A stretch of DNA of 45,221 nt, from positions 1-45,221 of the IMG/VR virus record IMGVR_UViG_3300037088_000255. The stretch is one strand, 5' to 3'. The notes beneath the pieces were generated by a model that saw only the letters and a list, made by a program, of their open reading frames with translations, was not told the origin of the DNA and did not search any database. The translations under genes and the position numbers were made by a program. The stretch comes from a virus. This document shows, one piece after another, positions 7,645 to 37,403 of the stretch. Numbering within the stretch: the stretch's first letter is position 1; each line of letters starts with the position of its first letter.

Positions 7645-8922
7645 ATGAAATTCAAGGTGCAGGTTGTCGATCTGAATCAAGCTCTTGAGGTGGCCTCGAT
7701 CGTGACTCCGAAGTCCTTGAAGGGCAAAGCAGGAGACGCAGGGAAGTTCTACCTCTTTTCCGTTCTAGGTGGGGAGTGCTTCGTCTACTCGGCTGGCGAC
7801 ACGGAGCTTTACTCTCGTGCAAGACTTTCGGTCGAAGAGGTCGAGGGCGAGGGGGTGTTCCTGTATCCGGCGAATCAGATCAACGCCATGCAGTTCGTCG
7901 ATGGTTGGATTCAGATCGAGTCCGGCAAAGATGACGGCACGGATCGGTATTGGGTTCGCTTCGAATGCGAGGACGGGTCCAACGGCGAGCAGACGACGAT
8001 CAGTCCGGAGTCCACGCAGTCCTTCGCCAAGGACTTCGAGGATGCCAAGAAGCTGCCCTTCCATGAGTACCCCGCTGCCCTCTTGCGTGAGGGATTCAGC
8101 TTGGTCAGGGGCTATCTGCCGGATACGGACAAGAAGCACCTCAACACCGCCCAGCTTTTCGACAAGTCCAGGGAGAAGTGGGCGGACGGCAACGGCAGTC
8201 TCATCGGGGCAGACGGCACCGCGACGTGCTGCTTCTACAGCAAGCAGTTGGAGGACAAGGGCTTGGGCGTTCACTCCAGCAACCTGTCCTACGTCCTGAC
8301 CTTCCTCTCCAAGTGTACGGGCAACGTTCGTGTTTACACGGGCGTACGAGCGGTGTTCGCCGAGACCGAGGACGGCTCTCGGGTTCTCGGTTGGGTCCAC
8401 CGCTGCGAGAACTACGACATCTTCCGGTACTACCCGGCCGACTGGGACAAGTTCATCCTTTGTTGCGAGAGGGACATCCTGATCAAGGCCCTGAAGTTCG
8501 TGAAGGCATCCCTGGAAGGGGAGAAGAACGACAAGGTCAGAGTCGCCTACGACCACCAAGCCAAGACGATCGTGTTCCGGGTGAGTCAGTCCTCGTCGCC
8601 GAAACCGGTCTCCAGCCGGCCGATCAGCGTCACCCCGATCGAGTTGGCTGAGGAAAAGGCAGGGGGCCTGGGGACCTCGACCGACTTCGCGGTCAACACG
8701 AGCATCGAGTACCTTTTGAACCTGCTTGTGCCCATGAAGAGCCCCAAGATTTTCCTTCGAGTCGCTCCGATTCCAGCCCGAGAAGGCCGCAAGGAAGGGG
8801 CGTACTTCCGCGTCGTCGAGGAGTACATGATCGACTCCAAGGGCAAGGTCGTGATCGCTCGTGAAGGTCAGGACGAACCATTCCAATGCAAAGTCACTCG
8901 GTTCATGATCTCGAAGGTATAG
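7645..8922 (+). CDS. DNA polymerase sliding clamp, DnaN-like
   Basis: A 425-residue protein starting at ATG 7645 after a strong AGAGGAGAG. It opens MKFKVQVVDLNQALEVAS, like bacterial beta clamps. A strand pair around FVYSAGDTELYSRARLSVEE and FLYPANQINAMQFVDG, with IQIES, matches the first DnaN domain (ligand for polymerase tethering). The C-terminus FRVVEEYMIDS through RFMISKV resembles the final beta strand of DnaN, which usually ends YVVMPMRL. It is about 60 residues longer than bacterial DnaN (about 366), with extra loops in the first and third domains. It would encircle DNA and tether polymerase and, by analogy to T4 gp45, could also serve late transcription. A DnaX-like loader gene lies 3 kb downstream. 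Confidence 0.7.
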   Translation: MKFKVQVVDLNQALEVASIVTPKSLKGKAGDAGKFYLFSVLGGECFVYSAGDTELYSRARLSVEEVEGEGVFLYPANQINAMQFVDGWIQIESGKDDGTDRYWVRFECEDGSNGEQTTISPESTQSFAKDFEDAKKLPFHEYPAALLREGFSLVRGYLPDTDKKHLNTAQLFDKSREKWADGNGSLIGADGTATCCFYSKQLEDKGLGVHSSNLSYVLTFLSKCTGNVRVYTGVRAVFAETEDGSRVLGWVHRCENYDIFRYYPADWDKFILCCERDILIKALKFVKASLEGEKNDKVRVAYDHQAKTIVFRVSQSSSPKPVSSRPISVTPIELAEEKAGGLGTSTDFAVNTSIEYLLNLLVPMKSPKIFLRVAPIPAREGRKEGAYFRVVEEYMIDSKGKVVIAREGQDEPFQCKVTRFMISKV

Positions 8923-10697: not shown

Positions 10698-11379
10698 CCA
10701 GCTTGTCGAGTACGCTGAAGGTCGCCTGGGAGACCGAGCGCGTGAGGCCCTGTGGATGCGTGGGGTCACCGACGAGCAGGTCCTGCTCTACCATTTGGGC
10801 TATCTGAACAGCGACCTGCCGGATCTCGACTACCCCAAGGATTTCCTTGAATGGTCCGATAACGGCAAGACGCTCGACGATGTGTTCGTGCTCCCGCTCA
10901 CGACCGTCCTCGGGCAGGTCAAAGGACTCCAGTTCCGGCACGTTGAAAGAACCCGTGCGGGATATAGGGACTTTATTCCCTATGACCAAGAGCCGGTCTA
11001 CTTCGGACTGGGGCAGGCAATGCCCCATGTTTGGCGGACGGGCGAGGTCTTTTTGGTCGAAGGGGGCTTTGACCTTTTCCCCATTCAGAGGGTTCGCCCT
11101 CAGGTGGTTGCTACACTGACAGCAAGGCTCACGGGTCAGTTCGCTCAACTCTTGTATCGTATTGCTGGTTCCATTTGGTTTTGCTATGACTGGGACGACG
11201 CTGGCCGGAATGGCGTCGAGCGATTCAAGAGATCCAACTACAGTCGGCACTTCAAAGTTCACGTCATCCAACGTCCGGGTGACGCTCCTCGGGGGTCGAA
11301 GGGGCCTGTCAAAGACCCTTCCGAATTGTGGGAGTCGTGGGGGGACGATCGATTCGGTGTATTCCTAAGGCGACAGTAG
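10684..11379 (+). CDS. DnaG-type TOPRIM primase, minimal form
   Basis: 231 residues. The N-terminal part (ALWMRGVTDEQVLLYHLGYL, VFVLPLTTVLGQVKGLQFR) matches the N-terminal subdomain of the DnaG RNA polymerase core. The TOPRIM domain then shows VFLVEGGFDLFP (catalytic Glu, about residue 125) and FCYDWDDAGRNG (DxD, about 168-172), with KDPSELW after it. It would synthesise RNA primers for lagging-strand DNA synthesis. There is no zinc-binding domain at the N-terminus and no helicase-interaction domain at the C-terminus, so it is far shorter than bacterial DnaG (about 580 residues). A zinc module might be supplied by another protein. No replicative helicase is seen in the window. Confidence 0.82.
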   Translation: MPWIDQLVEYAEGRLGDRAREALWMRGVTDEQVLLYHLGYLNSDLPDLDYPKDFLEWSDNGKTLDDVFVLPLTTVLGQVKGLQFRHVERTRAGYRDFIPYDQEPVYFGLGQAMPHVWRTGEVFLVEGGFDLFPIQRVRPQVVATLTARLTGQFAQLLYRIAGSIWFCYDWDDAGRNGVERFKRSNYSRHFKVHVIQRPGDAPRGSKGPVKDPSELWESWGDDRFGVFLRRQ

Positions 11380-11402
11380 AACCCTATCTGAGAGGACTGA
11401 AC

Positions 11403-11900
11403 ATGCCCAAAATCTACGAAGAAGCAGCATCGGTATCTTCGATCGCTGGCGGCCTCATCCCCAACTACCACCCCGAACTAGCGACGGCCCGCATTCACTA
11501 CGTCTTCATCAACGAGGCGACGCAAAAGGGCGGCCACGAGGTTCTCGGAAAGGCCCGGAAACTAGCGGGCTACCAGTTGTGGGCCTTGGAAAAGGACTTC
11601 GTCGTCGAAGTCGCCCTGGACAAGTGGAACGAACTATCGGAGCCCCAACGCACGGCGTTGACCGATCACCTACTCGAACGCTGCTTCGGCGAAGAGGACG
11701 AGGAGTCGGGCGAGATGAAGTGGAAGCTTCGCGAGCCCGATGTCCAGGAGTTCTCGACCATCCTCGAACGGCACGGGGCCTGGCATGAGAGCCTTGTGGG
11801 GTTCGTCACGATCGCCCATTCGCTCAACATCGACGAGATTGCCGAGGAAGAGACCGGAGTCGCCGCTACCACGTCGGTACAGACAACCGAGCCCGGCTGA
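11403..11900 (+). CDS. Phage metallopeptidase-like protein with altered active site
   Basis: 165 residues from ATG 11403, behind AGAGGA. The layout matches the family of putative phage zincin-like metallopeptidases: NYHPELATARIHYVF, then KDFVVEVALDKWNEL, then a helix RTALTDHLLERCF where the family normally carries an H-E-x-x-H type zinc site (often DHELCH). Here the helix reads D-H-L-L-E-R, so the Glu and second His are not in place. The C-terminus EPDVQEFSTILERHGAW is also family-like. It may be an inactive relative kept for binding, or the motif may have shifted. Role unknown; it lies between primase and clamp-loader genes. Confidence 0.65.
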   Translation: MPKIYEEAASVSSIAGGLIPNYHPELATARIHYVFINEATQKGGHEVLGKARKLAGYQLWALEKDFVVEVALDKWNELSEPQRTALTDHLLERCFGEEDEESGEMKWKLREPDVQEFSTILERHGAWHESLVGFVTIAHSLNIDEIAEEETGVAATTSVQTTEPG

Positions 11901-11903
11901 GCC

Positions 11904-13340
11904 GTGTGGGACATCCGATACCGCCCACTCCGTTTTTCGGACGTGCTGGGCCAGCAAGGCGCTGTCAAGGTACTCAAGGCCAGGCTTCTCAAGAAGACGG
12001 CCCTCGAAACGTCGTACATCTTTGCTGGCGGCCACGGCTGCGGCAAGACGACCCTTGCACGTATTTTGGCCAGGGCTTTGCTCTGCACGGCCTTGACCAA
12101 CGAGGGGGAGCCCTGTAACGAATGCGATAACTGTCGTGAGATCCTGTCCGAGACCTCCGATGCTTTCGTAGAGCAGGATGCCGCAAGTAACGGCACCATC
12201 GACAACATCCGAGAGATTGTCCACAAGCTCTCTTTCTTGGTCTATGGGGCTCCCAAACGGGTCTACCTGTTCGACGAAGCCCACCGGATGAGCAAGGACG
12301 CTCAAGACGTTCTCTTGAAGCCGATGGAGGACAAGCATCTCGTTTGCCTGCTTTGCACGACCGAGCCTGAGAAGATCCGCAACGCCATCCGTAGTCGGTG
12401 CGAGGAGTACGCGATCGGCAAGATCACTCGGGAAGACATCTTCGCTCGCATGAAGTGGATGCTCGAACAGGAGAAGGTCACGTACGAGGAAGATGCCGTA
12501 TTGACGGTCATCGACCATTCGGGGGGTCACGTACGTGACGTGATGAACAAGCTGGAGATGGTGGCCCAACTAGGTCCCGTAACCTCCGAAGCCGTCCGTG
12601 ACCAACTGAACCTGTCGGTCATCTCGACCTACTACGACGTGCTTCTGTCCTTGGGAGACCCGGCAAAATCGGTGGCCTTGATCGAACAGGCGTGCGATCG
12701 GGTCGGTGCCGATGAGGCGGCCTCGGGGCTTGCTGAAGCCGCGATGAACTCGTACCGCCTGGCTCACAACATGTTCGCCGACTTCGTGTACGTGGATCGC
12801 GATCGGGCCAAGCGGCTTTACGAGACGCACGGGGACGGCGTCACCAGGCTCGCCGAGCACTTCCTGGGCTCGCGTTCGACCAAGATCGGCCTCATCTGCG
12901 ATGTCCTGGCGTGTGCTTCGGGTGTGCCCGTTCGTCAGGTGGAGCCCCCGAGAGTAGCTCCGCAAGTGGCAGTTGCGGCTCTCCCGACGGCTCCTGTGCC
13001 CGTTCAGCCAGTAGTCGTGGCCTCGGGGCCGGCACCGGCTCCGGTGCCTCCCAAGCCCGCTCAGGGAACGACAACGCCTCCTCCGGCGTCCAACGGCAAT
13101 ATGCGTCCTGACGGCATCGGGGCACCGGGGACCAGCGACATCTACGCTCTCACCAAGAACGATCCCAAGGCGGTACCGCTTGAGCACCCTCGTGGGTACG
13201 ACCTTCGGAACCAGCCTATTGCCTTGGCAAAGAACGTGTCGAGCGAGGCGTCTTCCAGGGCGGTGGACTTCGGGCACCTCACTGCCGATCAATGGCGAGT
13301 CGAATTCGAATTGCTCGGTCTAGGGCAACGTCCGTCGTAA
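11904..13340 (+). CDS. DnaX-like clamp-loader ATPase
   Basis: 478 residues from GTG 11904, three bases after the previous stop. The start reads WDIRYRPLRFSDVLGQ, as in bacterial DnaX. Walker A is GGHGCGKTT (about residue 42-50). A four-cysteine zinc module follows (one Cys in LLCTAL, then CNECDNC). Walker B/sensor is VYLFDEAHRM (about 120), and IRSRCEEY supplies the SRC arginine-finger motif (about 163). After about residue 330 the sequence becomes a Pro/Ala/Val linker (pro-rich, about 345-400) and an unrelated tail. It would load the DnaN-like clamp encoded at 7645. No delta or delta-prime gene is visible, so it either works as a homo-oligomer, uses host subunits, or the partners lie outside the window. 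Confidence 0.92.
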   Translation: MWDIRYRPLRFSDVLGQQGAVKVLKARLLKKTALETSYIFAGGHGCGKTTLARILARALLCTALTNEGEPCNECDNCREILSETSDAFVEQDAASNGTIDNIREIVHKLSFLVYGAPKRVYLFDEAHRMSKDAQDVLLKPMEDKHLVCLLCTTEPEKIRNAIRSRCEEYAIGKITREDIFARMKWMLEQEKVTYEEDAVLTVIDHSGGHVRDVMNKLEMVAQLGPVTSEAVRDQLNLSVISTYYDVLLSLGDPAKSVALIEQACDRVGADEAASGLAEAAMNSYRLAHNMFADFVYVDRDRAKRLYETHGDGVTRLAEHFLGSRSTKIGLICDVLACASGVPVRQVEPPRVAPQVAVAALPTAPVPVQPVVVASGPAPAPVPPKPAQGTTTPPPASNGNMRPDGIGAPGTSDIYALTKNDPKAVPLEHPRGYDLRNQPIALAKNVSSEASSRAVDFGHLTADQWRVEFELLGLGQRPS

Positions 13341-13350
13341 AGGCTTCTAC

Positions 13351-15213
13351 GTGCAGAAACCAGGTAAATGGGTAGTGTTGGAGTTGAACTCTCGAAGCGA
13401 GGGTGAAGATCCGGATACTGTTTGCCAGTCGATCCGCTCGACCATCAAAGGTGCCGAGGTCTTCATCCCGGCCGCTGTGACGCAGGTTGGAGGGGATCGA
13501 GTCGTTCACTACTTGGTTGATGGCTACGCTTTCATACGGCAGATAGAGCCGGACTCGACGTACCTGAAACTAGAGAATTCTCGGTACATCCAGAGCGTGC
13601 TTTTCGTTCCCGAGACGCAGGGAAATAGGCGTCAGCTTGCGACGGTCACGGACAAAGACATCGCCAAGATGCGAGGCCAGATCGAGAATGAAATCGATCA
13701 GGGCATCGGCGTTGGTGACGTGGTCCGTATCACGAGCGGTGCGTACCGGAACATGGACGCCACCGTCATCGAGGAAATTCCCGAGCAGGGGATGGTACAG
13801 GTCTTCGTGAGGCTCAGGTCCAAGCAGAGCCTGATCACGTTGCCCCGGTCATTCCTCTACGTCGTCGATCGAGCCCCACTTTCACCCGTTTTCACCCGGC
13901 TCTTTGCTCTCAAGACGTGGGTCAAGGCAGCCCGGCCTATCCTACGGTGGCCCGACAACGGGTTCGATCAAATCCGCAAAACGTACCGTTTGTTCGAGCG
14001 GCACTCAGCGTGGCTGGCAAAGGGTAGGAGACTGAAGGCATTCATCAGTCTCAGTGAGGGCGTCTACGACAACCAGATGTCCGAGATTCGGACTCGGTTC
14101 AAGACCCTCAAGGTTCTGAACAATTTGACGAACCGGTTCGAGCTTCTCTGGCCATTCGTTGCCTTCTACTACGACCACGTAGACGAAAAGCGGCTCTCCG
14201 AGTTGACCGAACGGTTGCTCCGGCTCGCCTGGTTCGATGATTTCCAACACCGGCTTCAGACGACAGCCAATGACATCGAGACCCTTAGCCAGGACCTGGC
14301 TAAGTTTGAAGACGGGGATGAAGAAATGTACCAGAACGTGTTGATTGATGGCCACAATTTGGCATTCCGTTGTCTTCATGCTCCGGGCATGGCCGAACTC
14401 TGTGACTCCAAGGGGCGTCGCACGGGGATGATCCTTGGGTTCCTGAGAAGCTTGGGTATGTTCAAGAAACGTTACCCGGGTTCGAACGTCTATGTGACAT
14501 GGGACGGTTGTTCCAAGCGTCGGAAGAGCAAATTTGGCGACTACAAAGCGAACCGACCAAGGCCGGTTGGCCCCATTCCCGATGACGATCCGGTTTTTGC
14601 TCAGATCCAGTTTTTAATGACTATTCTCCCCCAACTCAGTGTTCGACAGGCCGTCAATCCGCTCGAAGAGGCGGACGACATCCTTGCCGCTTTGGTTTGG
14701 GGGCAGCTAAAAGGTCAAAAGAACTTGATCTTTTCCTCTGACCGTGACCTACTACAACTCGTATCGGAGACGACGCATGTCCTGGCTCCGGGTGCGGGAA
14801 CCAGGAAAGAGATACTGTTCGACCTAGCGGAGGTCGAAAGCGACTACGGGGTCACGCCATCCAAAATGGTTCAGCTTCGTGCTCTATACGGGGACTCTTC
14901 CGACAACATCCCAGGGGTGCCTCGGGTACCCAAGAAGGTCCTTCGTGCTTTGCTCCAGGCCCACGGGTCGATCGACGGTATCTACATGTCGGGCCTCACA
15001 GGTCTCACCAAGGGCCAGTACGAACGCTTGCGTTCTGCTGAACCTCAGGTAAGACTGAACGTCGAACTAATGTCCCTTGCGGACGTTGATGTCTCCGTAC
15101 GAGATCCAGATATAGATGCAGAAGGTGCAGCGGGCCGGCTTCGTGAACTAGAAGTCAACCCGGACCCGATTCTGGAGAGCTTCTTCGGAAGCACGAAGGC
15201 ATTGAGCCTATGA
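13351..15213 (+). CDS. NusG (NGN+KOW) fused to 5'-3' flap exonuclease
   Basis: A single 620-residue frame from GTG 13351 (AAAGG seven bases upstream). Residues 1-175 read as a complete NusG: KWVVLELNSRSE, EVFIPAAV, HYLVDGYAFIRQ, VTDKDIAKM, then a KOW domain GIGVGDVVRITSGAYRNM (about 118-135) through LPRSFLYVVD. NusG binds the RNA polymerase clamp and modulates pausing and termination. Residues about 175-325 are helical and unrecognised. Residues about 328-620 are a FEN/T4 RNase H-type nuclease: VLIDGHNLAFR, VTWDGCSKRR, EEADDILAAL, FSSDRDLLQL and GDSSDNIPGVP (helix-three-turn-helix), with all main acidic residues present. It would remove RNA primers and flaps. An ATG at 14326 could make the nuclease alone. 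The stop overlaps the sigma-like gene (ATGA). Confidence 0.88.
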   Translation: MQKPGKWVVLELNSRSEGEDPDTVCQSIRSTIKGAEVFIPAAVTQVGGDRVVHYLVDGYAFIRQIEPDSTYLKLENSRYIQSVLFVPETQGNRRQLATVTDKDIAKMRGQIENEIDQGIGVGDVVRITSGAYRNMDATVIEEIPEQGMVQVFVRLRSKQSLITLPRSFLYVVDRAPLSPVFTRLFALKTWVKAARPILRWPDNGFDQIRKTYRLFERHSAWLAKGRRLKAFISLSEGVYDNQMSEIRTRFKTLKVLNNLTNRFELLWPFVAFYYDHVDEKRLSELTERLLRLAWFDDFQHRLQTTANDIETLSQDLAKFEDGDEEMYQNVLIDGHNLAFRCLHAPGMAELCDSKGRRTGMILGFLRSLGMFKKRYPGSNVYVTWDGCSKRRKSKFGDYKANRPRPVGPIPDDDPVFAQIQFLMTILPQLSVRQAVNPLEEADDILAALVWGQLKGQKNLIFSSDRDLLQLVSETTHVLAPGAGTRKEILFDLAEVESDYGVTPSKMVQLRALYGDSSDNIPGVPRVPKKVLRALLQAHGSIDGIYMSGLTGLTKGQYERLRSAEPQVRLNVELMSLADVDVSVRDPDIDAEGAAGRLRELEVNPDPILESFFGSTKALSL

Positions 15214-15935
15214 GCCAAGGGTACGTCATCCCGGTTGATCCTGCTGAACTAGCCAGCAGGTTTCCCTCGCACAACCCTCAAGACGAAGATGATGGATTAG
15301 GAGAGGAGTTCGAAGGCACCGACATCTCCACCGAGGAAATGTCAGCGTTCTTCGCCGACGGCGACTACGAAAGTCGCATCGCACCCCTTCTGGATCGCAT
15401 CCCCGAGCGAGAGGCCGATCTCATCTACCTCTACTTCATCCAGCGAAAGAGGCAGGCCGACATAGCCAGCATCTTCGGGGTGACGCAAGCGGCCATAAGC
15501 TACCGATTGGACAGGGGAATACAGCGGATCAAGTTCCTCTTGTCGATCCCTCAGGTCACCGACGAGGAACTACGTCACGACCTCCCGGAGGTCTTCCCAA
15601 CCAAGACAGCCTGCCCCAAATGTGAACTACAAGTTCGGGCTGACTGCCCGGTTTGCAAGGGCGAAGGCAAGATCCTCATTGATGTGGAGATCCTCGTGGG
15701 CATGTGGGGCACCACATGTCAGTCAGAGGTCGCGAAGAAACTAGGTCTCACTCAAGGACGAGTGAGACATCGTTTTTTCACGGCCGTGAAGGTTTTGGAG
15801 AAGGCGTCCGGGGAAAACGAGCGGTTCACTCCCTACCATCGGATTTTCTCGTCCATCTCGAACAAGCACTTCAACGTACTGCGTGAGGTCAAGCTACCTC
15901 AGTGGCAGGATCGCGGCGGCGACGAGTGCATCTGA
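15210..15935 (+). CDS. Sigma region 4-like transcription factor with zinc ribbon and second HTH
   Basis: 241 residues. An acidic N-terminus is followed by LLDRIPEREADLIYLYFIQR and a helix-turn-helix, ADIASIFGVTQAAISYRLDR (about residues 90-110), the pattern of sigma-70 region 4 that contacts -35 DNA. A zinc ribbon follows (CPKCELQVRADCPVCKGEG, about 135-155), then a second HTH, SEVAKKLGLTQGRVRHRFF (about 174-192). Region 2 (the -10-melting part) is not visible, so it is not a normal full sigma factor. It may be a phage middle/late specificity factor or co-activator, or simply a two-HTH regulator. Its four-base overlap with the NusG-exonuclease gene argues for joint expression and a shared role in transcription. 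Confidence 0.72.
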   Translation: MSQGYVIPVDPAELASRFPSHNPQDEDDGLGEEFEGTDISTEEMSAFFADGDYESRIAPLLDRIPEREADLIYLYFIQRKRQADIASIFGVTQAAISYRLDRGIQRIKFLLSIPQVTDEELRHDLPEVFPTKTACPKCELQVRADCPVCKGEGKILIDVEILVGMWGTTCQSEVAKKLGLTQGRVRHRFFTAVKVLEKASGENERFTPYHRIFSSISNKHFNVLREVKLPQWQDRGGDECI

Positions 15936-28005: not shown

Positions 28006-28019
28006 AGCCGTCCTAGGTG

Positions 28020-31000
28020 ATGGACTTTCGGGCGACCAAAACCCACGGCGAGCGTGAGGATGACGAGGCAAAGCGCCTTGTCCGTCCGGCCCCGAAGGAC
28101 AAGCCCCCGCGTCACGATCTTCGTCGGAACCTGATGAAGCCCGACGAAGATCCGGATACCGACGCCGATCTTGACATCTCCAAGGACAAGGACAAGTCCC
28201 GCAACTACAAGAACATCGGCGGATCAGCGGGCCGTGTGCTTCGGCGCTTTCTGGCAAAGAGCGGCAAGAAAGAACGTGTTCAGGCGATCAACCAAGACGG
28301 GGAGATCGTTTCGGTCACACGAGAAACCCTCGAAAAATACCCGGACAAGTTCAAGAAGCACGAAGAGAAGCAGAAGACCCCGGAGAAGAAGGGACCCCCA
28401 AAAGAGAAGGGACTCCTTCAAGAGCCGAAGCCCCTTGAGGAATCGAAGCCGCTTCCGGAGTCGAAACCCGTTCAACAGACGAAGCCTCTCGAAGAATCGA
28501 AGCCCCTCAAGCCCATCCAAGAGGAAACGCCCTCCAAGGGTGAGGATGGGGGCGATATCGACTACGAGGCTGAAGGTGACGCCCTCTGGCAGATGGCAGA
28601 TGAGGACGAGTCCCTAAAGGAAGTCTTCGACAAGGTCCTGGACGAAACCGACGCACTCTACCACTACGCGAAGAACAAGCCCCACACCCCGATAAAACAC
28701 GTCGTCAAAGCCCCGCTTCCTGGGTGGATCAAGACCCTCGGGGATTTGTGGAAAGCTTTGACGGCGAAGCACGGCAAGGGCGGCAAAGGGGGTAAGGGCA
28801 CCAAGCCCCTCAATCTGTTCAAGCACACGCCGGGCAAGTCAGTGAACGAGCCCAAAAAGCCGAAGCATCCGAAGCTCAAGCACGAAAAACCCGAGGCCGA
28901 GCCTGAGGCTGAGCCCGAAGCCGTTCCGTCAGGCAAGCCAAAGGAAAAGGTCGCCCCGGACATCGGGAAGTTCGAGCCGGCGATTGGAGCACGGCCCCCC
29001 ACGGAAGAACCCGAGGGGGCTCAACCTGAAGAGGGCCACGAAAAAGTCTCCCCGGACATAGGGAAGTTCGAGCCGGCGATTGGGGCGAGGCCCCCCGAGG
29101 AAGAGAAAGTCCCGCCGTCCGGCAAGAGGCCCAAGAAGAAGCCCGAAGCAGCCCCTGTTGGCGAGGTGAAGCCCAAGAAGACGGACGAGGAAATCTCGAA
29201 AGAGGTCGTCGATCGCTTCGTGGGTGGTGGGCAGCACAAGAGCACGGGCTTCCAGGAGTACCTCAACAACATCCCGACGAGCGACAAGCCCGCTGGAGTC
29301 GAAGATGTTCAGGTCCTCGATCCGGACACGAAGACTCGGGTGCCCTTCGAGAAGCTCAGTCCTGCCAGGCAGAAGGCCCTCATCGACGGCTACGAGGCAA
29401 AAGAGACTGATGCCAGTATGGATCAGGCCAAGGTGGAAGACGCCGAGCGGGCCAAGCAGCATGGAAAGACGGTCACTGCCTTACTGGACAAGGTTCAGGA
29501 TCACAAAGCTCGGTACGTCCTTGACCAATTGGGGGACCCTGAGAGCGATGCCTCGAAGAAGCTCGCTGAAGTAGCCCAGGACAACGACCTCAAGTTCGTC
29601 AGGCCCGGCAAGATTTTCCCCGAGCTAGAGGGCAATCTCCCAGAGGAACTGAAGACTCTTGATGATGTTTCCGGCGCAGTCAAGTTGCGTAGCAGCTACG
29701 AGAGCCTTTCAGAGGCGGCCAAGCGGGACATCCCTGAGCCGAAACGCCGGAAGGTTTCTGAAGCCGAGGAAGAAGCCTCTTCTCTTGAAGTCGCTGACAC
29801 ATTTCCGCCGGACATGGCGGCCGAAATTCTCGGCAAGGGGCTTCATCCCGACGACACTCGGGAATTGATTCGGCAGTTCCATGCGGCCAAGAGCCAGAGG
29901 CCGAAGGACCTGTCCCAGTACGTCGAGCAGGCAAAGGCGTTCTATCAAACCGATCCGAACAAGGTGAGGCCCCCGAAGACGGTCACCAAGGATGGAGTGA
30001 CCACGGACTTCGACAAGCTGCCGCCGGAGGAACAAGGCGAAGCTCTGCGACAGCACCAGATGAAGGTCATGGCCGCGAGCATGGCGGTCAAGGACCGGCT
30101 TACCTACGAACTGAGCATGCCGAGCATCACGAACAAGCCTCGGGTGCCCGTCGAGCTTGCCTCCAAGCTGGCCGAGATGACCCTGCACAAGGGATCTGAC
30201 GAATTTGCCGAGGAGGATGCCACCGAGACGTTCAACACGGTTCTCACGTCTGGGCAGTACACCCCGATCAAGGACAAGGTCGCGTCCGAGCTACTTTCGA
30301 AGCTCGACGAGGGCAGCAAGCGGGTCGCTCAGGCGTACCTCCAGGCCAACGACTACCAGGAGGCGAAGAGCAAGTTCCTGACCTCGAACCCCAATCCGAC
30401 GAAACAGGCCAAGTCCGAGCACTCGTGGGGTGAGCCGGAAGATGAGCACGAAGACCTCTACACGATCTCCGAGTGGGACTCTCCGAGAAAAATCGCCAAA
30501 GGTCTTCAGAAGGCGTCCGAGTTCTTCAACCAGAAGGCTGAACTTTACGGCACGCCCACCCATCCAGCAGCGGCCGTGTTTCGGGTTCGGGTCCTTTCGA
30601 AGCTTCGGGCTCTTGCTCCGGAGAAGTACGAGGCGGCTCGTAACGAAGTGGCCAAGACAGAGGCCAACGAATACGACGACGCCCTGAAGAAGCACGAGGC
30701 TTGGAAGAAGAGCCAAAAGGGGCCTGAACCCCCGAAGCCCGAGAAGCCTCTGAGGTACGACATCGTTCGTGGGAAGACCGAGTCGGAGGGCAAGGACCTG
30801 TTCGAGAATTTGGCCACGCAGTCGAAAGTCGGCTCGTGGCACGCAAATTCTTCTTATCCAACAGGGATCTCGATGGGTACTTCTTTGTCGAGGCAGGCCG
30901 TCTACCACGGGATCGATCCGTCCAGTACCGCCTTCAACGTCTACCGCAAGTGGTCTCAACCGCATCAGAGAGACGCAGGGGAGTCCGATTACCAGACCAT

Positions 31001-31616
31001 CTTGGCTCAGGCCAAGGACTGGCTCAAGGCACCGGTTCTCTCGATGGCATACGCCGGTACTTTCCGAGACACCCAGCTTCGAGCCGCGTTGGATCTGGCC
31101 ATCCAGACCACCAACTACAAGCTCGATCCCAACACGTACAACGCCCTCCTGAGTCGTTTGGGAGGCAAACAGGCATCCAAATCCTCTTATGAGAGCGCAT
31201 CGGGAGAGGTCAAGACCATGAGCACATCCGCGAAACTCCGCAAGTTGGCCGCCAAGGCTTCCATCGAGAACCCCAAGTTTGCTTTCGATCTCATGAAGAT
31301 CGCCGAGGAAGCGGACGACGAGGAAAAGCAGGACAAGGACCAGCAGAAGCAAGCGGCGAACAACCATCCGCCCGGCTGCACTTGCCCCATTTGCCAGAAC
31401 ATGAAGGGCAAGGGCGACGGCGACAAGAAGGACGACGACAAGAAGGAAGCCGCTCAGCAGCAGAAGAAGCAAGACGAGCCCAAGGACGACGACGCACAGA
31501 AGCAGGCATCGAAGTACGCCTCGCTTCGGTCCGCTGTCATCCGTACGGCCGCGAGCGACGACGCTGCGAAGCGAACCCTTCTCCCGGTCCTCCAAGTCAT
31601 CAAGCAACTGGGCTGA
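28020..31616 (+). CDS. Giant low-complexity protein of the head block (1198 residues)
   Basis: Starts at ATG 28020 (a GTG at 28017 is the alternative; neither has a good ribosome site). The N-terminal 350 residues are dominated by Lys/Pro/Glu repeats of the type PLEESKPLPESKPVQQTKP and a duplicated block PDIGKFEPAIGARPP. The middle (about 370-1040) is helical and partly folded (KTHGE..., ELIRQFHAAKSQ, YTISEWDSPRKIAKG). The C-terminus has a CTCPICQ cysteine cluster inside a KDQQKQAA / EAAQQQKKQ tract, then SLRSAVIRTAAS. Its site between portal and prohead protease suggests an inner-head, scaffold or packaged protein that may be proteolysed. No family is recognised. Confidence 0.72.
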   Translation: MDFRATKTHGEREDDEAKRLVRPAPKDKPPRHDLRRNLMKPDEDPDTDADLDISKDKDKSRNYKNIGGSAGRVLRRFLAKSGKKERVQAINQDGEIVSVTRETLEKYPDKFKKHEEKQKTPEKKGPPKEKGLLQEPKPLEESKPLPESKPVQQTKPLEESKPLKPIQEETPSKGEDGGDIDYEAEGDALWQMADEDESLKEVFDKVLDETDALYHYAKNKPHTPIKHVVKAPLPGWIKTLGDLWKALTAKHGKGGKGGKGTKPLNLFKHTPGKSVNEPKKPKHPKLKHEKPEAEPEAEPEAVPSGKPKEKVAPDIGKFEPAIGARPPTEEPEGAQPEEGHEKVSPDIGKFEPAIGARPPEEEKVPPSGKRPKKKPEAAPVGEVKPKKTDEEISKEVVDRFVGGGQHKSTGFQEYLNNIPTSDKPAGVEDVQVLDPDTKTRVPFEKLSPARQKALIDGYEAKETDASMDQAKVEDAERAKQHGKTVTALLDKVQDHKARYVLDQLGDPESDASKKLAEVAQDNDLKFVRPGKIFPELEGNLPEELKTLDDVSGAVKLRSSYESLSEAAKRDIPEPKRRKVSEAEEEASSLEVADTFPPDMAAEILGKGLHPDDTRELIRQFHAAKSQRPKDLSQYVEQAKAFYQTDPNKVRPPKTVTKDGVTTDFDKLPPEEQGEALRQHQMKVMAASMAVKDRLTYELSMPSITNKPRVPVELASKLAEMTLHKGSDEFAEEDATETFNTVLTSGQYTPIKDKVASELLSKLDEGSKRVAQAYLQANDYQEAKSKFLTSNPNPTKQAKSEHSWGEPEDEHEDLYTISEWDSPRKIAKGLQKASEFFNQKAELYGTPTHPAAAVFRVRVLSKLRALAPEKYEAARNEVAKTEANEYDDALKKHEAWKKSQKGPEPPKPEKPLRYDIVRGKTESEGKDLFENLATQSKVGSWHANSSYPTGISMGTSLSRQAVYHGIDPSSTAFNVYRKWSQPHQRDAGESDYQTILAQAKDWLKAPVLSMAYAGTFRDTQLRAALDLAIQTTNYKLDPNTYNALLSRLGGKQASKSSYESASGEVKTMSTSAKLRKLAAKASIENPKFAFDLMKIAEEADDEEKQDKDQQKQAANNHPPGCTCPICQNMKGKGDGDKKDDDKKEAAQQQKKQDEPKDDDAQKQASKYASLRSAVIRTAASDDAAKRTLLPVLQVIKQLG
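28419..28520 (+). repeat. Short Pro-Glu-Ser-Lys repeat tract inside the giant gene
   Basis: Tandem degenerate five-to-seven-residue repeats (EPKPLEESKPL, PESKPVQQTKPL, EESKPLKP). They probably form an extended, disordered linker. Confidence 0.6.
28945..29103 (+). repeat. Direct duplication encoding PDIGKFEPAIGARPP twice
   Basis: Two copies about 93 bases apart (about 28945-29009 and 29040-29103) are nearly identical at DNA level as well as protein level, indicating a recent in-frame duplication. Confidence 0.7.
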
Positions 31617-36524: not shown

Positions 36525-37403
36525 ATGAACCCAGTTTCCAACGAAGTCAAGCAACAGATCATCTCGGAATACATCAAGACCGCCGCTGGTCGTGCAAAGC
36601 TGGCAGCCTCGATGATCCAACCGTTGCGTCTACGGCGTGACTACACCGCCGTGGGTCGCAAGACCTTCTTGGTCGAGCAACTCCCGGATGGAGCACTCCC
36701 CATCTACGACAAGGACCCGGAAGTCACGGCCTTCGTCGTCGGCGAGGAAGGCGAGAACATCCTGGCGATCCAGAAGCCTCGCAGGGTCATCTTCCCGCTG
36801 TTCGAGATCGCCTCGAACCCCGAGATCCCGCTCACCCAGATCAAGGAGCGCCGGTTCGATCTCATCGAACGGTCCCAGGACCTGGCGAAGGCGCAGATCC
36901 AGGCAGCGGAAGACGAGCGTGTGTTCGCAGTCCTCGACAGCATCGCTGTCTCGGGCTTCGACACCCTCGGTGGCCAGACCAACCCGGACGTGGCCGTTGT
37001 CGCCCCGATCTCGCCGAGCGTTCTCGCGGACGCTTTCGCCGAGGTCGAGCGTCACGACCTGCGTGTCGCCCGCATCTACATGAATGCGGTGGACTACGCT
37101 GACATCCGGAAGTTCGGCCGCGACATCCTGGACATCGAGAGCCAGGCCACGCTGCTCAAGACCGGTCTGCAAGCCACCCTCTGGGGCGCTCAGATCATCA
37201 CCAGCCGTCTCGTCCCCGCCGGGTTCGTGTACGTCTGTGCCGAGCCGGAAAACTTCGGCCGCTTCCCCGTCCGTACGGAACTCACGGTTCTGTCCGCCGA
37301 CGACCCCAAGGCCCGCACGATCGGATTCTCGGTTTTCGAGAACGTCGGCATCGGTGCCTTCAACCCGCGTGGCCTCACCCGCCTCACGGTCACCCGGTTC
37401 TAA
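36525..37403 (+). CDS. Major capsid protein
   Basis: 292 residues, with AAGGAAAAAG before ATG 36525. The sequence fits an HK97-fold coat protein: a helical N-arm (VSNEVKQQIISEYIKTAAGR), an E-loop-like stretch, a spine helix region (RSQDLAKAQIQAAEDERVF), and SPSVLADAFAEVERHDLRVA followed by RIYMNAVDYADIRKFG in the A/P domains. It ends with NPRGLTRLTVTRF, a typical capsid beta strand. It has no long cleavable N-terminal delta domain, which agrees with a separate scaffold gene upstream. A strong terminator directly after the gene fits high-level expression. Encapsulin-like relatives are the nearest alternative. Confidence 0.82.
   Translation: MNPVSNEVKQQIISEYIKTAAGRAKLAASMIQPLRLRRDYTAVGRKTFLVEQLPDGALPIYDKDPEVTAFVVGEEGENILAIQKPRRVIFPLFEIASNPEIPLTQIKERRFDLIERSQDLAKAQIQAAEDERVFAVLDSIAVSGFDTLGGQTNPDVAVVAPISPSVLADAFAEVERHDLRVARIYMNAVDYADIRKFGRDILDIESQATLLKTGLQATLWGAQIITSRLVPAGFVYVCAEPENFGRFPVRTELTVLSADDPKARTIGFSVFENVGIGAFNPRGLTRLTVTRF

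Follow-up and report, generated by a model that had tools for sequence, protein, structure and literature searches.

An uninterrupted NusG-FEN fusion gene conserved in a lineage of huge phages

Introduction

NusG/Spt5 proteins form a universally conserved family of transcription elongation factors, and FEN-type enzymes are the universal nucleases of primer removal. In the NusG family the NGN domain is anchored on the beta' clamp helices and acts at the upstream fork junction; Mfd and UvrD, two factors that couple transcription and repair, work there too (PMC5100998). In the sections covered of a review on NusG diversity, extra domains are mentioned, the known add-ons (e.g. DII of T. maritima NusG) are not nucleases, and no nuclease was found (PMC7819879).

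The FEN/Pol I family includes the nucleases of Taq and mycobacterial Pol I, FenA/YpcP, ExoIX and T5 D15. The 5' nuclease of Pol I is able to work in trans, and RNA flaps are removed by FenA in B. subtilis (PMC13220808). Phage T4 likewise encodes a FEN-family enzyme, the primer remover RNase H, which was among the Foldseek matches of the protein described here (2ihn); unlike that protein, it stands alone, with no NusG part.

The window analysed in this work is the whole 45,221-nucleotide stretch of an IMG/VR virus record (IMGVR_UViG_3300037088_000255). The TerL of this 45-kb fragment matches relatives in contigs of up to 512 kb, and the window therefore belongs to a huge-phage lineage. One of its genes encodes both protein families in a single frame. 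The order and fold of its NGN and KOW domains are those of NusG/Spt5 proteins and of the paralogues RfaH, UpxY and LoaP, but a linker and a nuclease are added. Its FEN has the fold and the nine acidic residues of the FEN/Pol I family, but lies C-terminal to NusG, whereas the FENs of that family stand free or are N-terminal to a polymerase.

Each of the two parts falls in a known family; their combination is undescribed as far as we searched, which supports the novelty suspected in an initial annotation of the window. A scan of cellular genomes (GTDB) with two short patterns gave FEN-only matches and no fusion, and none was found in plasmids, phage records or BFVD. The portion of the literature covered by our searches contained no report of NusG in connection with huge or jumbo phages, or of its fusion to a flap endonuclease.

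Results

The fusion gene and its product are organized as follows:

13351..15213, + strand: NusG-linker-FEN fusion gene, 620 aa, GTG start; one open frame, with intact homologues in more than 50 contigs.
13363..13695, + strand: NGN (NusG N-terminal) domain, residues ~5-115; PDB profile matches to NusG, strands in the AlphaFold (AF2) model, Foldseek 6gov_G.
13708..13872, + strand: KOW domain, residues ~120-174; Pfam KOW at 121-151, family alignment, NusG profile match.
13876..14325, + strand: helical linker, residues ~176-325, of variable length; AF2 helices 179-320, low confidence.
14326..14328, + strand: in-frame ATG (Met326) at the FEN boundary, a possible internal start.
14332..15183, + strand: FEN/Pol I-type 5'-3' nuclease, residues 328-611; Pfam, alignment invariants, Foldseek 6c33 (1.4e-17).

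The single uninterrupted frame reported by the initial annotation was confirmed in the window sequence: it is GTG-initiated and runs through 620 residues with neither stop nor frameshift. The domain limits given there (NusG 1-175, FEN 328-620) proved accurate, the two parts being found at about 5-174 and at 328-611, and the proposed helical linker of about 150 residues corresponds to AlphaFold helices at 179-320, where model confidence is low. The AlphaFold model of the full protein (mean pLDDT 77.6) has strands of NGN and KOW type in the N-terminal part, as the proposed folding check had anticipated, followed by the linker helices and a confident FEN. Foldseek searches with this model retrieved FENs at 1.4e-17 and the NusG chain of the lambda-N antitermination complex at 1.9e-8; the whole-protein family profile matched Pol I/FEN chains of the PDB at 1e-46 and NusG at 1e-9.

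The description of the first part as a whole NusG holds for the fold. The sequence is divergent and paralogue-like: the score against the housekeeping NusG equivalog (NCBIfam TIGR00922) was 25.5 bits, far under the curated cut-off of 135.7, and the protein is therefore a divergent member of the superfamily and not a NusG orthologue. Taken singly, the sequence gave weak matches to Pfam KOW (0.014) and Pfam NusG (0.07), an NCBIfam nusG match at E 1e-5 and a match to PHROG 6386, 'transcription antiterminator', at 2e-5. The assignment became solid when relatives were added to the profile: a profile of eight NusG parts retrieved T. maritima NusG at 3.7e-10, in agreement with the Foldseek match of the NGN fold (6gov_G, 1.9e-8), and the KOW domain following the NGN was clear in the family profile.

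The NGN core is kept, and its GY.F strand aligns with FPGYVFV of T. maritima NusG. The NusG part probably binds RNA polymerase (RNAP). The KOW domain of bacterial NusG carries the contact stretch 'IFGR'. This stretch is absent from the family, the aligned residues being 'LRSK', and the KOW has invariant residues of its own; the absence of 'IFGR' puts the partner of the KOW in question and counts against a model in which the nuclease is tethered to RNAP.

The FEN part is complete and carries its acidic motifs, as the initial annotation had stated. Pfam 5_3_exonuc_N (PF02739) covers residues 330-500 (E 2.8e-26) and 5_3_exonuc (PF01367) residues 501-583 (E 2.9e-14); together with Foldseek 6c33, these matches identify the PIN-like N domain and the H3TH domain. 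Nine acidic residues, corresponding to the metal-binding residues of the FEN family, are invariant in 18 sequences: D333, D385, E440, D442, D443, D464, D466, D515 and D518. The conserved active site predicts nuclease activity. No polymerase domain was found by Pfam in the fusion protein, which sets it apart from DNA polymerase I.

A C-terminal clamp-binding (PIP-like) motif is not claimed. The pattern [ILMV]xxFF occurs in 25 of 32 C-terminal tails, against 0.8 in shuffles, but it falls at the position of the last helix in Pol I-type FENs. In the whole-protein profile search the alignment with Taq ends just short of this position; the Taq residues that follow presumably place the pattern at that helix.

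Relatives were gathered by TerL first, and then by the family alignment of the fusion. The fusion is one intact frame in 18/18 related virus records matching both parts; three more records, all fragments of less than 90 kb, gave no fusion match. The family scan recovered 55 contigs (L057-L111), 52 with an uncut fused gene, one with a gene cut by the contig end and two with a split gene, and one further contig (L181) also carries the fusion. After removal of duplicates, 45 distinct full-length fused sequences remained, the window included.

Where dS was estimable, pairwise dN/dS was 0.03-0.19 in NGN-KOW, 0.08-0.25 in the linker and 0.03-0.11 in FEN. Purifying selection acts on each of the three segments, including the linker, which is poorly conserved in the family alignment. 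Trees of the NusG part and of the FEN part give the same main groups, as expected if the parts were fused once and then inherited together.

These results bear on whether an assembly or sequencing artefact could have joined two genes. Split frames do occur in two contigs, and nothing else speaks for an artefact. The stop or frameshift between the parts that the initial annotation had named as grounds for doubt was not seen: the same join is intact in more than 50 independent, diverged contigs from many metagenomes, which rules out chance or assembly error, and the dN/dS of all three parts argues in the same direction. The probability of an artefact is thus negligible and the fusion is, with near certainty, real; its product would be a genuinely bifunctional protein of these huge phages.

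Three genes of the window form the context of the fusion:

11904..13340, + strand: DnaX-like clamp-loader gene, directly upstream of the fusion; NCBIfam dnaX_nterm 3.6e-65, conserved neighbour.
15210..15935, + strand: sigma-70 region-4 protein gene; Pfam Sigma70_r4 2e-13, conserved neighbour.
7645..8922, + strand: DnaN-like sliding clamp; profile 1vpk 3e-7, AF2 pLDDT 92, Foldseek beta clamps ~2e-17.

Wherever the contig extends far enough, the genes follow one another as dnaX - fusion - sigma region 4, and in the window the ATG of the sigma gene and the stop of the fusion share 4 nt (ATGA). The clamp gene, located about 4.4 kb upstream of the fusion, has no PHROG match, and its DnaN type was recognized by profile and predicted fold. 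The gene preceding dnaX (11328-11900) is conserved in the fusion lineage and in the sister lineage described below; it was assigned to a transposase by PHROG and to a phage metallopeptidase by Pfam (PF18894, 9e-23). Elsewhere in the window, a 1199-aa frame (28017-31616) with no Pfam or PHROG match lies where the AT skew is strong (0.26-0.33).

This neighbourhood is consistent with several readings. A nuclease placed on the transcribing RNAP is a putative but plausible role, and it fits the wider context of one NusG and one FEN found, with neither RNAP beta' nor RNase H detected; the presence of the sigma gene could also mean no more than that replication and transcription genes are grouped in one operon. 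It is unlikely that the NusG part was repurposed to bind the phage replisome or clamp loader in place of RNAP, positioning FEN at the fork: the location of the fusion between dnaX and sigma, about 4.4 kb from the clamp gene, and the divergent sequence with its own invariant KOW residues would agree with such a role, but the NGN core is kept, including the strand shared with T. maritima NusG, and stand-alone relatives are kept in phages with no detectable FEN.

Replication-coupled late transcription of the T4 type, with clamp, sigma-like factor and co-activator, and with FEN marking replicated DNA, has a precedent in T4 (PMC7892883), and the genes for clamp, loader, NusG-FEN and a small sigma-region-4 protein lie near one another. 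We consider it very unlikely here, as no clamp-binding motif or gp33-like gene is established and proximity by itself says little.

A search with PF02739 gave exactly one FEN in each of nine contigs of 372-513 kb, that of the fused or split gene, and NusG matches, where present, were to that same gene. Neither RNAP beta' nor RNase H was detected in these nine contigs. Pol A was present, separate from the FEN match, and the one Pol A examined in full had no 5'-nuclease match. The fusion is thus probably the only FEN and the only NusG of the phage, 'only' meaning the only one found in contigs that are possibly incomplete. As no RNAP beta' was detected, transcription should rest on the host RNAP, the natural partner of NGN, and the fusion probably works together with that RNAP and with the Pol A of the phage.

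A sister lineage (LR745208, L178-L180) has a stand-alone NusG in the same slot between dnaX and sigma. Its NusG, about 200 aa long and 27-31% identical to the NusG part of the fusion, has neither linker nor FEN. FEN was not detected in the records of this lineage, two of which are short fragments and carry little weight; that the lineage manages with no detected FEN is an argument against a tether.

In the cultured Tunturiibacter jumbo phage Tunturi_5 (PP885688), the clamp-loader gene is likewise followed directly by a NusG-like one: gp25, 'transcription antiterminator' (annotation; PHROG 6386). Unlike the fusion, gp25 is 344 aa long and has a C-terminal extension of its own, and no FEN was detected in the complete genome. 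The product gp26 of this phage was suspected to be the missing FEN half and ruled out by a check; a scan with the Tunturi_5 NusG gave no relatives. Since a stand-alone NusG follows dnaX, with no detected FEN, in both the sister lineage and Tunturi_5, FEN was probably added to a pre-existing phage NusG, as far as sequences can tell; the alternative is loss of FEN in the sister lineage and in Tunturi_5.

The capsid protein of the window is 84% identical to that of LR745208, 47% to that of Tunturi_5 and 38% to that of Bacillus phage G. The unequal identities to LR745208 (capsid, window 36525-37403, 84%; TerL 48%; NusG part about 31%) point to mosaic evolution. The dnaX of LR745208 (L002:2161-4047) has an intein-like insert beside the Walker B motif and that of L179 a larger interruption; the Pol A frames of LR745208 and G016 are unusually long and match in pieces, possibly due to inteins.

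Two contigs carry the halves of the gene in different, overlapping frames (L107, 2803-4561; L108, 5980-7871). Both splits lie precisely at the FEN start, where the fused genes retain a start codon. The split in L108 is an ATGA stop-start overlap; that in L107 sits at a run of seven A, where a one-base assembly error is possible. In the trees, L107 and L108 are nested in different fused groups: the gene is split again in two nested lineages, each independently. The covalent link is therefore not indispensable.

An ATG, GTG or TTG is found near the FEN boundary in 44/44 distinct fused genes. Among 30 fused representatives (<75% identity), 25 have an ATG and 5 only GTG/TTG, within 12 codons; the ATG share expected from the Met frequency of the linker is 18%. 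The Shine-Dalgarno (SD) strength at the boundary start exceeds that of the remaining in-frame starts of the same genes (mean percentile 0.73; p 0.001 by Wilcoxon test on lineages that are not independent) and about equals that of annotated gene starts. A separate, free FEN product of an internal start is therefore possible; a proven dual product is not claimed, the SD being well supported in some lineages but missing from other groups. Alternatively, the start codon may be a relict by ancestry alone. Together with the two re-splits, the boundary start suggests that FEN may also function, or be produced, separately.

These observations bear most directly on an operon-style origin, in which NusG would serve as antiterminator on host RNAP and FEN in primer removal, the join providing equal, timed supply, with the linker as a spacer and perhaps some free FEN from the internal start. 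This reading, possible though somewhat doubtful in our judgement, is favoured by the stand-alone NusG of the sister lineage and Tunturi_5, by the re-splits exactly at the FEN start and by the conserved boundary start with its SD. It is less easily reconciled with retention of the fusion, its frame conserved, in the large majority of lineages, deeply diverged as these are, or with selection on the linker, and translational coupling, as in the ATGA overlap of the sigma gene, already offers equal supply.

Discussion

The explanation that we favour, tentatively and ahead of the operon-style fusion, is a FEN tethered to RNAP that also serves primer removal; the preference is based on the anchoring site of NGN and on the precedents of the trans-acting Pol I nuclease and FenA. 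The NGN domain would dock at the upstream fork junction, on the beta' clamp helices of the host RNA polymerase. The flexible helical tether would give the nuclease reach behind the polymerase, where the transcript can re-anneal, and where a replication fork meets the polymerase. A transcript that anneals at the upstream junction while its 5' tail stays free would be a natural substrate of a FEN-type enzyme. The nuclease could cut RNA-DNA hybrids and 5' flaps of either RNA or DNA on templates that are both transcribed and copied, while the fusion protein would also support pause-free transcription of the phage genome and supply primer removal in trans to the FEN-less phage Pol A. RNAP may be the site at which the nuclease acts, at slightly less than even odds in our judgement.

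The real, conserved join suggests a direct physical link of transcription with genome copying: as a stable natural fusion, it would make transcription and primer removal meet physically in these phages. A phage factor carrying a flap/R-loop nuclease on the elongating host RNAP could, still more tentatively, belong to a new class of factors that deal with transcription-replication conflicts. The fusion offers a probe for the handling of R-loops and collisions in phages where one DNA serves both replication and transcription, with natural controls in fused, re-split and FEN-free relatives, one of which is a cultured phage. If the favoured explanation is true, elongation would be physically tied to the removal of RNA-DNA hybrids and primers.
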